A DNA stretch of 64,000 bases from assembly GCF_016907925.1 (NCBI RefSeq), contig NZ_JAFBCZ010000006.1:124001-188000 (forward strand), read 5' to 3'. Of the stretch, positions 27,827 to 32,969 are shown piece by piece. Position 1 is the stretch's first letter, and every line of letters starts with the position of its first letter. The position numbers and the translations under genes were made by a program. Under the pieces are notes generated by a model. That model saw nothing but the letters and a program-made list of their open reading frames with translations. It was not told where the DNA came from and searched no databases. The DNA comes from Herpetosiphon giganteus (GTDB lineage Bacteria; Chloroflexota; Chloroflexia; Chloroflexales; Herpetosiphonaceae).

Positions 27827-27864
27827 AACGCCCGCTCAAGCTCTGAGCGGGCGTTGGTTTTTTT
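27827..27864. terminator. Bidirectional intrinsic terminator
   Basis: AACGCCCGCTCA (27827-27838) pairs exactly with TGAGCGGGCGTT (27844-27855) around a 5-base loop. A T-rich run to 27864 follows on the plus strand and an A-run lies on the other side. It separates the protease gene from the convergent amine oxidase gene. Confidence 0.92.
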
Positions 27865-29041
27865 AGCGTTGTTGGCTGGCGTATAAGTCGCGGGGAACCA
27901 TCTGGAAGCTGCTCCAGTGGGCCGACATTAATGGGTCATCCTCGTCGCGGGGCAGGTGATGGAAGGTCATTCCATACCAAACGATTGGGTCGACCAAGGT
28001 TTGGTTATTGACAAAACCACTAACATCATCAGCGCAGGTGTTGCCATCGTTGCGCGAAGCCCAGCGTTCGCAGGGGTTGTTTTCGGTCACATAGACATCG
28101 TTCTTGGTCCATGGCTCAAACGAAGGGCCACGGAACACATGATCGGAGTTGCCAACGATGTCGTATGAGATTTCGTGACCATCGCTATTCAAGACCGTGC
28201 TGTTTTTGACGCGCCATGAGCGGAAATTTTCAGGGTTGACTTGAGCGGCGGTTTCAGTGGTATAGGGTCGTACTTGTAAGCCACGTTGGGCAGTGCCACT
28301 TGAATCGAATTCGATTTGCTCAACGACGTTATTGCTGTTGCCGCCAAGTGCAAAGTCGATCCGCCAGTAGTAATTGTGAACGTGCGATGTGCCATATTGG
28401 CAGCTACTCGCATCGATCTTCCAGCCATATTTGGCCACATTGGTACATTTTTGCAATTTACCAGTTGCGCCGATGCCTGGCTCAATCGTGGCATCATCGT
28501 GGAAAATCCATTGGCTAACATAGTTATAGGCACCAATGTGCGAAACTGAGCGCACCACCAAGGCTGAGCCTTGCTTGACTTGGGCATAATATTTGTAGGC
28601 ATAGCCAGTTGGCACGACCGTAGCACACAGCACATTGCGCCCATTATTTTGCAGCAAAGTTCCATCGGGGCAATCGGCTGCCGTCATGTTATTGAGGTGG
28701 CCGCCACCCAAGCCATAATCTGAGAGGTCGTGGAAGCGGGCGGTGTTATCGTCGTATGGGACGTGAATTTGGGCCAAATTAATTTGGTTGATAATCGAGA
28801 TTGCGCTGCCACCTGGTGGGGTGTAGCGGATGCCGCGCAGCACAATGCCTTCGCTGCTGCGTTCTTCCCAACATAAGGCCCAGCTGGCCCCGTTTTCCAA
28901 GGTTTTGTTAATCGTAAAACTACCACCAGAACAACGGTCGCGGGTTTGGGCATTGGCTGCTTGCTGCGAGTTTGTGCTAAGCAGACTGGCCCCAATTAAT
29001 AGCATGCCAAGCAGCATGCCCCAACGTGCTGAAAGCTTCAT
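27863..29041 (-). CDS. Secreted copper amine oxidase, catalytic domain only
   Basis: 392 residues with a signal peptide (1-31). The body matches the catalytic beta-sandwich of copper amine oxidases: a VPYDD...FHDLSDYGLGGG segment (about 95-112) where the catalytic-base Asp lies; GAYNY with Tyr172 at the place of the topaquinone precursor; the copper pair His220/His222 in HVHNYYWRIDF; and His362 in TFHHLPRDEDDPLM near the end. Normal enzymes are 630 residues or more and carry N2/N3 domains before this part; here they appear to be in the gene just upstream. The usual N-Y-D/E-Y around topaquinone is A-Y-N-Y, so activity is uncertain. AGGAG precedes the ATG. Confidence 0.78.
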   Translation of the reverse strand: MKLSARWGMLLGMLLIGASLLSTNSQQAANAQTRDRCSGGSFTINKTLENGASWALCWEERSSEGIVLRGIRYTPPGGSAISIINQINLAQIHVPYDDNTARFHDLSDYGLGGGHLNNMTAADCPDGTLLQNNGRNVLCATVVPTGYAYKYYAQVKQGSALVVRSVSHIGAYNYVSQWIFHDDATIEPGIGATGKLQKCTNVAKYGWKIDASSCQYGTSHVHNYYWRIDFALGGNSNNVVEQIEFDSSGTAQRGLQVRPYTTETAAQVNPENFRSWRVKNSTVLNSDGHEISYDIVGNSDHVFRGPSFEPWTKNDVYVTENNPCERWASRNDGNTCADDVSGFVNNQTLVDPIVWYGMTFHHLPRDEDDPLMSAHWSSFQMVPRDLYASQQR

Positions 29042-29051
29042 CGCCAGGCTC

Positions 29052-29816
29052 CTAACGCTTCAAACTAACCACAAGGCCATTCGAAAGATCAACAATCGGG
29101 GTGCTCTCAACTGCCCATTCATTATCGGCGCTGAGCAGCAATTGCACGCAGCGATTTTGTTGGCAACTGCGCAAAACTGCGGCGTTATCAACTTGTGGCT
29201 CGGCAATATAGACGAAGCCTGCCGTCTGGAATTGGCTAGCCTGGGTCAGGCTTTTGCCTGTCAAGGCTTGATACTCGCCGCGCAACTGTGGCCCAAAGGT
29301 GGGGTGATCCAAGACCAATTGCAGGGCGCGCAAGGTTTCGCGATCGGTTGGGTGGGGTTGGCTGCCTCGTGCTTGATCAAGCAGATCGACCTTGCCAGTG
29401 CTGAGGTTGACCAACACGGCCACCAAGCTGTTTTTGGCATAATCGAAAATCAGCACATCGGCGCGGCGTTGCCATGTGCCCTTGTTGTAGACAGCTTGAA
29501 TTTCTTCGTGGCGTTCGGTTTTGACGAATTCCAACTGGGCATCAGCAGGTACGGCCTTGTTTTCGACCACTTTGCCGCGTTTGGATTGCCATTCGTTGAG
29601 CGCAATCTTCTGGGCTTGCTCAATTTCGGCCAAGGATAAAGGATCATAGCCTGAGCGATTGTTCTGGGCGGCGATTTCGACCTTGCCAGTAACCGTGTTC
29701 GGGGCGGCGGTGGCCTGCGGATCACGCCGCAGATAGACGATCAGCAGGGCGACCAACGCGCCGCATGTGAGCCATGCAACGTTTTTGAGCACTGCCCGTG
29801 AGCGAGATACGACCAT
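29052..29816 (-). CDS. Membrane-anchored N2/N3-like domains of a copper amine oxidase
   Basis: 254 residues. TM at about 9-26 with the rest outside the cell. The segment DPLSLAEIEQAQKIAL (near 58-73) resembles the HPLDPLS.EEI.A start of the N2 domain. The stretch ADVLIFDYAKNSLVAVLV with NLSTGKVD matches the beta-strands of N2. HPTDRETLRALQLVLDHP resembles the N2/N3 linker, and the last 20 residues resemble the end of N3. The gene ends 10 bp before the catalytic-domain gene, so both are in one operon and likely form one enzyme from two chains. AAGGAGAG lies before the ATG at 29816. The assignment is by pattern and context and could be wrong. Confidence 0.6.
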   Translation of the reverse strand: MVVSRSRAVLKNVAWLTCGALVALLIVYLRRDPQATAAPNTVTGKVEIAAQNNRSGYDPLSLAEIEQAQKIALNEWQSKRGKVVENKAVPADAQLEFVKTERHEEIQAVYNKGTWQRRADVLIFDYAKNSLVAVLVNLSTGKVDLLDQARGSQPHPTDRETLRALQLVLDHPTFGPQLRGEYQALTGKSLTQASQFQTAGFVYIAEPQVDNAAVLRSCQQNRCVQLLLSADNEWAVESTPIVDLSNGLVVSLKR

Positions 29817-29932
29817 CGGACTCTCCTTACAGCAGAAATGGTTCAATAATCAAGCAGCCGCATTGCGATGGGCGTTGGGCCAGAAACCAACATAACCCAG
29901 AACTTGCGTCACTGCCTGAATCATAGCCTAAA

Positions 29933-29958
29933 GGGTATGAACACTGCTGTTCATACCC
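29933..29958. terminator. Perfect 10-bp hairpin, possible terminator
   Basis: GGGTATGAAC (29933-29942) and GTTCATACCC (29949-29958) pair exactly around a 6-base loop. On the minus strand it follows the aminopeptidase stop by 35 bases and is followed by TTTA only, so it could be a terminator or a binding site for the promoter of the amine oxidase genes. Confidence 0.5.
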
Positions 29959-29993
29959 TCGAACATGCTTAAGTTGGAAGAATAAGGGAAGGT

Positions 29994-31097
29994 TTAGACG
30001 ACGAATGTGCCGTTTTTCTCGAACAATTGGCCATCGACATAGACTTCGCTATTTTGGCGCAAATCGCAAACCATATCCCAGTGGATTGCCGATTGGTTTA
30101 AGCCGCCAGTTTCAGGGTAGGAAGCGCCGAGTGCCATGTGGATTGTACCACCCATTTTCTCATCGAATAAAATGTTGCGGGTGTAGTTTTTGATGTTGGG
30201 GTTGGTGCCAAAGGCAAATTCGCCCAAAACCCGTGCCCCAGCATCAACATTCAACATTTGCTCAAGGAAATCTTGGCCGCTCTTGGCTGTTGCCTTAACA
30301 ACTTTGCCAGCTTCAAAGGTCAATTGTACATCTTCGACTTCGCGTCCATTATAGATCGCTGGGAAGGAGAAGCGTACAATCCCGTTGACATTATTTTCTT
30401 CTGGGCCGGTAAAAAACTCGCCATCAGGGAAGTTGGCATCGCCAGCACAATTGACAAAACTGCGTCCGGCAATTCCCAAGCGAATATCGGTGCCTTCGCC
30501 CACAATATGCACTTCGCGTTTATTGTGCAAGAAATTAATCAAATGCGCTTGTTTGTCGTGCAGTTCTTGCCACTTGGCGATGGGGTCGGCTTCGTTCAAG
30601 AAGCACACGCCATAGACAAAATCTTCAAAATCGGGCAAGCTCATGTTAGCATCTTGGGCCAAGCCCTCGGTTGGAAAGAGCGTGACACACCAGCGAAAAT
30701 CGCCAGCATGGGTGCGCGACATCAATTTGCCCATCAATTCGCTGCGTGATTTTTGATACACCGATTGGCGCTCAGGATCAACCTGCGAGAGTTCGCGGGT
30801 GTTGGTTTGGGAATCAATCCGAATTCGCACATCGGCAGTTTCAATCCCCAAGCGATCGTAGGGCGAGATCCATTGTAACTGCTGATCGTTGCCATGATTG
30901 AGCAAAATTCGCGAGATGCCAGGCATAACCGTGTGGACAACTGGATTGCCACCGACCAGCAAAATTTCGCGATACATTTCTTTGATCAAGGGTGCGGCAG
31001 CTGGTTCGCTTTGCAAAACCACCATTTCGCCTTCTTTGATCTTCATCGAATAATTGACCAAGGTATGGGCCATTTTGACCACCCGTGGATCGGCCAT
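29994..31097 (-). CDS. Aminopeptidase, M29 family
   Basis: 367 residues. It matches the M29 metallo-aminopeptidases (AmpS/AmpT type). ADVRIRID lies in the N-terminal half. The C-terminal metal-binding part has GEGTDI, a FPDGEFFTGPEE segment supplying Glu ligands, LGEFAFGTN with a Glu, and the final MALGASYPETGG...SAIHWDMVCDLR, where His and Asp bind the metal. It is a cytoplasmic peptidase for peptide turnover. AAGGAG precedes the ATG. It lies 60 bp after the pepF gene on the same strand, so the two peptidases may be co-transcribed. Confidence 0.9.
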   Translation of the reverse strand: MADPRVVKMAHTLVNYSMKIKEGEMVVLQSEPAAAPLIKEMYREILLVGGNPVVHTVMPGISRILLNHGNDQQLQWISPYDRLGIETADVRIRIDSQTNTRELSQVDPERQSVYQKSRSELMGKLMSRTHAGDFRWCVTLFPTEGLAQDANMSLPDFEDFVYGVCFLNEADPIAKWQELHDKQAHLINFLHNKREVHIVGEGTDIRLGIAGRSFVNCAGDANFPDGEFFTGPEENNVNGIVRFSFPAIYNGREVEDVQLTFEAGKVVKATAKSGQDFLEQMLNVDAGARVLGEFAFGTNPNIKNYTRNILFDEKMGGTIHMALGASYPETGGLNQSAIHWDMVCDLRQNSEVYVDGQLFEKNGTFVV

Positions 31098-31157
31098 GTC
31101 AACTCCTTACACAACACAACTCGCCCTTCACACCGAAGAGCGAGCATTGAACTATGA

Positions 31158-32969
31158 TTAAGCAGTTAATTCATCGAGTTTGGTCACCAAATCGCCGAAG
31201 CGGTTCATGGCGCGATGAATTGGGTCTGGCGTGGTCATATCGACCCCAGCGCCCTTGAGTAGGTCAATTGATGATTTGGAATTGCCACCGCGCAAGAAGT
31301 TGACATAGTTTTCAGCTGCACCAGGGCCTTCGGTCAAAATCTTGTCGGCCAAGGCCAGCGCTGCTGAAATGCCAGTCGAATATTGGTACACATAGAATGA
31401 GCGATAGAAGTGAGGAATCCGTGCCCATTCAATATCCAATTCTTCATCGAAGACCAATTCAGGGCCATAGTATTGCTCGATCAAGCGGCGATACAAGGCG
31501 CTGAGGTTATCGGCGGTCAGGGCTTCGCCTTGTTCGGCCATGCGATGGGTTTCGCGCTCGAATTCGGCAAACAAGGTTTGGCGCAACAATGTGCCGCGAA
31601 TATCATCGATTTGCTGGGTGACCAATTGCAAGCGCAAGGCTGGGTCGTCGCTGGTTTTGAGCATATATTCGGCCAGTAAGGCTTCGTTTAAGGTCGAAGC
31701 AACTTCAGCCACAAATAAGGTGTAGCTGCCATAGGTATAGGGCTGATTTTTGCGGGTCAGCAACGAGTGCATCGAGTGGCCAAGCTCGTGAGCTAGGGTA
31801 AACAGGCTATTCAAGTTATTTTTGTAATTCATCAAAATGAATGGTTGCGAGGTGTAGCAACCCCATGAATAGGCTCCTGAGCGTTTATTTTTATTTTCGT
31901 AGCGGTCAACCCAGCGCGATTCAAGCCCATGGCCGAGGCTTGAGCTATACTCAGCGCCCAGTGGCTCCAAGGCGCTCAAAATTAACGAGGCCCCTTGCTC
32001 GAAATCAATTTTAGTTGGCGCAGCGCCATTCAACGGCACAAACCAATCGTAGGCATGCAGGCTGTCGATGCCCAAAATACGCTTGCGCACCGAGCCATAG
32101 CGATGTAATTTGGGCAAGTGCTCGTGCACGGTGCTGATCAAATTATCATAAACGCTCATGGGAATTTCTTTGGGTTTTAAGCTAGCATCCAAGGCCGACT
32201 CGTAGCCGCGTGCTTTGGCATAGAAAATATTGCTGCGCACGTTGGTGGCATAATTTGCGGCCAACATATTACGAAACTGGCGATAGGTGCTGTGGATGCT
32301 CATAAAGGTGTCGCGGCGAATGCGTTGGTCGGGGTTTTCCAACAACACCGAATAGCGACCCATCGTAACTTCAACGGGCTTGCCTTGATCGTCTTCAATT
32401 GGCGGGAATTTGAGGTCGGCATCGCTGAACATGTTGAAGGTGGTTTGGGCACCACGGCTAATCTCGCCGCTTTGGGCCAATAATTCCTCAACTTCGCCAG
32501 AGCGGGTATGTTCGCGCAAGCGAATTTGCTCTTCTAAGGCGCGGCGATAGACTTCGAGGGCTGGCAAGGCACTGATGTAGCCCAAAATTTGCTCATCGGA
32601 AAGCGCCAGCAACTCAGGCTCGATCCACGATGTGGCAGCGCTGGCCTTAATCGAGAGCGCGGTGGCGCGTTCTTCGAGCGCTTGGTGATGTTGGTTGGCG
32701 GTGTCTTCGTCGGCGCGCAGGCTGGCGTAGACATAAATTTGTTCGAGCACCATGCCAAGTGCTTCTTGGGCTTGAAAGACTGCCAATAACGCCTCAGGAC
32801 CGTTGGCTAGGCTGCCTTGCAGGCTGGTCAAGGCTGGCAGCAAATCGTTGCTAATTCGTTCAACATCAGCCTCCCAAGCCGCTTGGTCTGCATAGAGACT
32901 ACTAATATCCCAAGTGTCTTCGGCGCTTACTTCCTCGCGGGTTGGTACCTGTTCTTCAACCATGGTCAT
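31158..32969 (-). CDS. pepF: Oligoendopeptidase F, M3 family
   Basis: 603 residues, the normal size. The zinc motif HELGHSMHS starts at His394, and the third ligand Glu is in FVAEVASTLNEALL about 25 residues later. The N-terminal half is the all-helical PepF domain. The C-terminal part has FYVYQYSTGISAA. It cuts oligopeptides in the cytoplasm. The start is the ATG at 32969 with GGGAGA upstream; a second ATG six bases later is equally possible. A 232-bp gap separates it from a divergent membrane protein gene and holds a short inverted repeat TATGCT/AGCATA at 33055-33072. Confidence 0.93.
   Translation of the reverse strand: MTMVEEQVPTREEVSAEDTWDISSLYADQAAWEADVERISNDLLPALTSLQGSLANGPEALLAVFQAQEALGMVLEQIYVYASLRADEDTANQHHQALEERATALSIKASAATSWIEPELLALSDEQILGYISALPALEVYRRALEEQIRLREHTRSGEVEELLAQSGEISRGAQTTFNMFSDADLKFPPIEDDQGKPVEVTMGRYSVLLENPDQRIRRDTFMSIHSTYRQFRNMLAANYATNVRSNIFYAKARGYESALDASLKPKEIPMSVYDNLISTVHEHLPKLHRYGSVRKRILGIDSLHAYDWFVPLNGAAPTKIDFEQGASLILSALEPLGAEYSSSLGHGLESRWVDRYENKNKRSGAYSWGCYTSQPFILMNYKNNLNSLFTLAHELGHSMHSLLTRKNQPYTYGSYTLFVAEVASTLNEALLAEYMLKTSDDPALRLQLVTQQIDDIRGTLLRQTLFAEFERETHRMAEQGEALTADNLSALYRRLIEQYYGPELVFDEELDIEWARIPHFYRSFYVYQYSTGISAALALADKILTEGPGAAENYVNFLRGGNSKSSIDLLKGAGVDMTTPDPIHRAMNRFGDLVTKLDELTA

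Follow-up and report, generated by a model that had tools for sequence, protein, structure and literature searches.

Copper amine oxidase domains divided between two adjacent genes in Herpetosiphon giganteus and its relatives

Background

Every copper amine oxidase (CAO) with a characterised structure is a homodimer built from subunits of 70-80 kDa (PMC3382800, 2012), and the canonical single-chain enzymes (ECAO/TynA, AGAO, HPAO; PF02727-PF02728-PF01179; PRK11504) carry the N2, N3 and catalytic domains in one polypeptide. The topaquinone-site Tyr of these enzymes lies in an Asn-Tyr-Asp/Glu consensus (PMC3382800). Replacement of this Asn by Ala lowers topaquinone biogenesis to 1/180 and kcat to 1/160 in AGAO (N381A), which nonetheless still forms topaquinone and still turns over (PMC9491219), and leaves 5-10% of the topaquinone in HPAO (PMC3382800). 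Topaquinone-type CAOs are not homologous to the LOX-type lysyl oxidases (PMC3382800), which have an LTQ cofactor. Another secreted amine oxidase that binds copper, HyaS (SCO7657), comes from the filamentous genus Streptomyces and has been tied to hyphal cross-links, with a proposed role in hyphal aggregation (PMC10771440). Searches of open-access literature found no two-chain or split CAO; as subscription papers were outside our scope, this absence is weak evidence of novelty.

Results and Discussion

Gene organisation

The window, i.e. the whole stretch of DNA that was analysed, comprises 64,000 nucleotides of Herpetosiphon giganteus, a member of the Chloroflexota. A preliminary description reported a CAO apparently split into two adjacent genes 10 bp apart, and both minus-strand open reading frames lie where it placed them, with 10 bases between them:

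29052..29816, minus strand: upstream gene, N2/N3 subunit, 254 aa; ATG start, AAGGAG just 5'
27863..29041, minus strand: downstream gene, catalytic subunit (predicted to be exported), 392 aa; ATG start, GGAG just 5'
29042..29051, minus strand: intergenic gap of 10 bases containing GGAG, at the position of the ~40-residue N3-catalytic linker of single-chain enzymes
29931..29960, minus strand: hairpin with a weak U-tract between an upstream aminopeptidase-like gene and the CAO pair (fold z-score -4.2)
27827..27855, plus strand: terminator-like inverted repeat common to the CAO pair and a convergent S41-type peptidase gene

The arrangement suggests a separate transcription unit, since the pair has a strong hairpin on its 5' side and a terminator-like repeat on its 3' side. 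The catalytic gene of this pair is the only Cu_amine_oxid match in the genome. Both genes are unbroken in all Herpetosiphon genomes encountered, among them that of H. aurantiacus DSM 785, which is complete. Two more genes of this strand lie upstream of the pair (window positions 29994-32969); they encode an aminopeptidase-like protein of 367 aa and an oligoendopeptidase F-like protein of 603 aa, so named by sequence resemblance only, and are conserved as neighbours of the CAO pair in Herpetosiphonaceae.

The upstream protein

Three segments can be distinguished in the 254-aa protein:

residues 12-30 (approximately), N-terminal: hydrophobic export or anchor segment
29367..29648, minus strand: N2-like domain, residues 57-150, a helix plus beta strands with a DPL...E signature at its start
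29055..29354, minus strand: N3-like domain, residues 155-254, its final residue corresponding to the N3 end of single-chain enzymes

Searched alone, this protein had no match among PDB sequences and only weak Pfam matches, under the N2 cut-offs, and neither Pfam nor NCBIfam holds a model for a separate N2/N3 protein. Recognising it took profile and structure searches. NCBIfam PRK11504 matches it at positions 8-126 (E = 1.5e-7). A profile built from 48 split partners, to the exclusion of single-chain proteins, returned only CAOs in its top 14 matches to PDB sequences (best E = 0.005) and, across 400 Chloroflexota genomes, recovered split pairs together with N-terminal regions of single-chain CAOs and of proteins resembling CAOs. 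Profile-profile alignment with the N2-N3 region of canonical Chloroflexota CAOs spans 176 columns (E = 9e-15), passing through both domains and stopping at the N3/linker boundary. The AlphaFold (AF2) model contains two alpha/beta domains (pLDDT 84.5) and a low-confidence N-terminal helix, and its best Foldseek matches in the PDB are all CAOs (E = 1.4e-8), with moderate TM-scores of 0.50-0.56 by query length.

Lack of a structural match to N2/N3 had been set beforehand as the result that would refute the proposed likeness; the match was obtained and the claim survives, model and sequence profiles alike pointing to CAO N2/N3 and to little else. Judged from sequence and predicted structure, N2 and N3 are thus present as a separate protein. 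A Cys218-x3-Arg222-Cys223 motif in the N3-like domain occurs in 47 of 47 aligned partners. The proposed membrane anchor is supported only in part: the N-terminal hydrophobic segment exists and anchoring is likely, but an anchor cannot be separated from a cleaved signal peptide.

The catalytic chain and the break point

The downstream protein has a signal-like N-terminal segment followed by a catalytic domain:

27881..28930, minus strand: CAO catalytic domain, residues 38-387 (PF01179)

PF01179 is matched over model positions 7-401 of 407 (E = 7.2e-40) at 137.6 bits, compared with a curated cut-off of 27, and CAOs are also matched in a PDB sequence search. The AF2 model has the catalytic fold (pLDDT 85.9, pTM 0.85), with CAOs as best Foldseek matches in the PDB (E = 3e-23), and includes a long hairpin (strands 135-151 and 154-169) that we read as arm I. 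The catalytic domain of the original description is confirmed, its export being a prediction. The protein does not qualify as a LOX-type lysyl oxidase; its sequence and fold match topaquinone-type CAOs.

The two proteins cover the 648 positions of PRK11504 in order and without overlap, upstream at 8-126 and downstream at 232-623; the same model is matched by 39 of 48 split partners and all 53 split enzymes tested. The break lies in the linker that joins N3 to the catalytic domain, the latter beginning right after the downstream export segment, and in the profile-profile alignment a gene boundary takes the place of the ~40-residue single-chain linker. Profiles, models and the position of the break thus agree that these are complementary parts of one CAO, upholding the original proposal of a split, and the division and its location are established at the level of sequence and model. 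Compared with canonical CAOs, the pair has the same domains in the same order, the same fold by AF2/Foldseek, and the copper ligands, topaquinone Tyr, base Asp and gate Tyr; Cys124 and Cys139 are shared with Chloroflexota canonical enzymes. It differs in comprising two chains broken in the linker, in a catalytic domain ~40 residues shorter, in replacement of the Asn of T-x-x-N-Y-D/E, and in an extra Cys57, present in every member of the split clade, together with the N3 Cys pair.

The active site and its missing Asn

The residues assigned to catalysis are as follows:

28754..28756, minus strand: Tyr96, gate Tyr (ECAO Tyr369 / HPAO Tyr305), in 85/85 split and 25/25 canonical enzymes
28727..28729, minus strand: Asp105, putative catalytic base, in 85/85 split and 25/25 canonical enzymes
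28526..28531, minus strand: Ala171-Tyr172, topaquinone-site Tyr (85/85 split) after an Ala where canonical enzymes have Asn
28376..28384, minus strand: His220-x-His222, putative copper ligands, in 85/85 split enzymes
27956..27958, minus strand: His362, putative third copper ligand, in 85/85 split enzymes

The preliminary description had named the three His and Tyr172, all of which are present and invariant in the 85 split relatives, as are Asp105, Tyr96 and also Tyr174. The stretch around the cofactor site, His168-Ile-Gly-Ala-Tyr-Asn, does not meet the Asn-Tyr-Asp/Glu consensus: Herpetosiphon has Ala-Tyr-Asn-Tyr where canonical enzymes have Asn-Tyr-Asp/Glu-Tyr. Among the 85 split enzymes position 171 is Ala in 42, Trp in 35 and Asn in none, compared with Asn in 23 of 25 canonical enzymes, and the residue after the topaquinone-site Tyr varies freely.

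Since Asn is absent from the split clade and its replacement by Ala damages AGAO and HPAO, either the site has been rebuilt or the enzyme is slow or different. The proteins might accordingly assemble without forming a normal topaquinone enzyme, serving instead a slow or different cofactor chemistry, another substrate, copper binding or an oxygenase-like role. Loss of Asn throughout the clade, mostly to Ala or Trp, and the free variation beside it favour such a reading, as does the crippling of two canonical enzymes by the equivalent substitution (PMC3382800, PMC9491219). Set against it are the complete conservation of the other catalytic residues, including the amine-oxidation base Asp and the cofactor-positioning Tyr96; the appearance of genuinely relaxed selection, which is seen instead in the degenerate paralogues described below; and the residual biogenesis and turnover of AGAO N381A. 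We consider this reading unlikely, while still giving it some weight. A divergent but working CAO remains preferred: the pair is homologous to the CAOs (EC 1.4.3.21/22) and probably works like them, its activity being inferred. Because it meets neither the single chain of 70-80 kDa with N2, N3 and catalytic domain (there are two reading frames here) nor the Asn-Tyr-Asp/Glu consensus, we call it a split, divergent variant rather than an ordinary member.

Distribution and phylogeny

Scanning GTDB species genomes yielded 219 relatives, of which 80 loci from Chloroflexota, Gammaproteobacteria and Actinomycetota were examined; statements on occurrence outside Chloroflexota rest on these loci only. 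N2/N3 reading frames were located with a profile seeded from Herpetosiphonaceae partners. Of the 80 loci, 70 have a separate N2/N3 gene a short way upstream of the catalytic gene and in the same orientation, and none of these 70 has N2/N3 and catalytic domain in one frame, compared with 25 of 25 canonical Chloroflexota loci. The suggested search of Chloroflexota for the same pair and for fused forms gave both: a stand-alone N2/N3 gene occurs in 9 of 400 genomes and is adjoined by a catalytic gene in all 9, the 25 canonical loci being the fused forms. Chance adjacency is ruled out by these counts (70/80 loci, 9/9 Chloroflexota genomes), and the gene neighbourhood appears obligatory as far as genome sequences can establish it.

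The phylogenetic tree separates canonical from split enzymes (support 100 and 98, respectively), with the divergent L034 and L035 unresolved between the two groups. The split form is a clade across three phyla and not a peculiarity of the Herpetosiphon genome. Streptosporangiaceae and Streptomyces split pairs (L078-L122) have the same two-gene N2/N3 plus catalytic layout as Herpetosiphon and, unlike it, a Trp before the topaquinone Tyr (W-Y-T/A/E-Y). A plasmid search for the split protein found distant relatives only (23-27% identity), the best of which, a single chain of 711 aa from Sinorhizobium BG8, has the canonical GNYDY motif.

Ten of the 80 loci have no N2/N3 partner in the DNA examined. 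Such partner-less catalytic genes, found in some Gammaproteobacteria, and the confident folding of the catalytic model alone are compatible with a stand-alone amine oxidase whose neighbour is a chaperone, an inhibitor or a separate binding protein and no structural subunit. One of these loci (L064), however, is cut at the stretch edge, and most of the others are, from their locus titles, extra copies in genomes that have a full operon; moreover the partner spans N2 and N3 completely, both of which a chaperone need not keep, and in single-chain HPAO the stretch preceding the catalytic domain contributes substrate-channel residues (positions 155 and 156; PMC3382800). We consequently judge a stand-alone enzyme quite improbable and retain the N2/N3 protein as a subunit.

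Several other loci are of separate note. Five CAO-derived single chains of ~580-690 aa from Herpetosiphon relatives and Chloroflexales (L036, L037, L038, L041, L042; e.g. L038:1972-3801) match the N2/N3 profile (E 1e-14 to 1e-21) and only the first ~50 positions of the catalytic model; L037 and L038 have a lipobox, L038 lacks the copper HxH, and the group is probably a separate degenerate family. L035:2910-4502 (G369) encodes a 530-aa single chain on a long tree branch, in which ~200 aa precede a very divergent C-terminal catalytic domain (GWYRY, HVHTH). At L033:1464-2263 (G295) a frameshift divides the N2/N3 gene between two overlapping frames, probably through an error in this metagenome-assembled genome, whose Rubrobacter label is doubtful because a genome search puts it in Herpetosiphon's class.

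A third gene in Gammaproteobacteria

Gammaproteobacterial operons (L050-L086) share with Herpetosiphon a separate N2/N3 gene and an active catalytic gene of the same motif class, and differ in having three genes and, usually, a C-terminal extension on the active enzyme. The order in 27 loci, from Thiothrix, Leucothrix, Cocleimonas, Pseudomonadales and other Gammaproteobacteria, is N2/N3, a degenerate catalytic-domain gene, then the active catalytic gene. The two degenerate copies tested still match PF01179 (E = 2e-30 and 3e-35). All 27 degenerate copies lack the copper HxH, 22 lack the topaquinone Tyr and nearly all lack the base Asp, while structural residues such as Cys57, Trp355, Glu367 and Asp368 are kept in 27 of 27. 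Within the split clade these copies group together as a single clade (support 99), with internal branching resembling that of their active partners, a pattern which, as a sequence-based inference, is consistent with one old duplication and joint inheritance of the two genes. In two Cocleimonas loci (L062, L064) the degenerate gene is followed by two tandem active catalytic genes (frames of ~1450 and 517 aa), which suggests several catalytic chains per N2/N3 chain there.

As the two proteins together make up one known enzyme, they could in principle come from a single gene broken by a frameshift or an assembly error. The same break recurs in dozens of independent assemblies, a complete genome among them, both pieces come with a ribosome-binding site and an export segment of their own, and in these Gammaproteobacteria another gene lies between them; we discarded this explanation with near certainty.

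Proposed enzyme

We propose that both genes belong to a single operon and specify an exported CAO made of two chains, with the separate N2/N3 chain completing the enzyme and probably tethering it, a reading to which we assign a probability of roughly 0.77. The upstream N2/N3 chain, borne on its N-terminal hydrophobic segment, and the downstream catalytic domain would assemble outside the cytoplasm, in the arrangement that single-chain CAOs reach covalently. Two catalytic domains would dimerise via their beta-hairpin arms with one N2/N3 chain flanking each, the latter helping to form the substrate channel and probably holding the enzyme at the membrane. Copper on His220, His222 and His362 would oxidise Tyr172 to topaquinone, and with Asp105 as base and Tyr96 positioning the cofactor, primary amines would be oxidised to aldehyde, ammonia and H2O2. 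Assembly, topaquinone formation, activity and tethering are all inferred; no complex has been predicted or measured.

The substrate is a matter of guesswork, a protein or peptide amine at the cell surface being our guess, without substrate evidence. Herpetosiphon, Thiothrix, Leucothrix, Streptosporangiaceae and Streptomyces are filamentous. A surface-protein substrate is attractive because of such filamentous owners (many of them are, an association without a statistical test) and of adhesive tails in Gammaproteobacteria, where the active partner often has a C-terminal tail that contains Ig, cadherin-like or TSP3 repeats in two of three enzymes scanned. The two-chain enzyme might then oxidise surface-protein lysines, i.e. 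cross-link, rather than act on small amines, a role compatible with our main explanation and with a precedent in the proposed role of HyaS (PMC10771440). It must be tempered by the lack of any substrate evidence and of an adhesive tail on Herpetosiphon enzymes, and we regard it as a possibility that is real but in the minority. A broader conjecture is a multi-chain class of quinoenzymes, in which an exported N2/N3 chain is common to several catalytic chains, the gammaproteobacterial dimer is asymmetric (active/degenerate), the cofactor site is free of Asn, and filamentous bacteria use it on surface proteins; we doubt that it holds in full.

Conclusions

With a natural two-chain CAO, what N2/N3 and the catalytic domain each contribute could be tested by omitting one chain, with no artificial cutting. 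The gammaproteobacterial operons contribute a likely pseudoenzyme partner, and the split clade, in lacking the Asn credited with keeping topaquinone in position, poses the question of how the cofactor may form and turn over without it.
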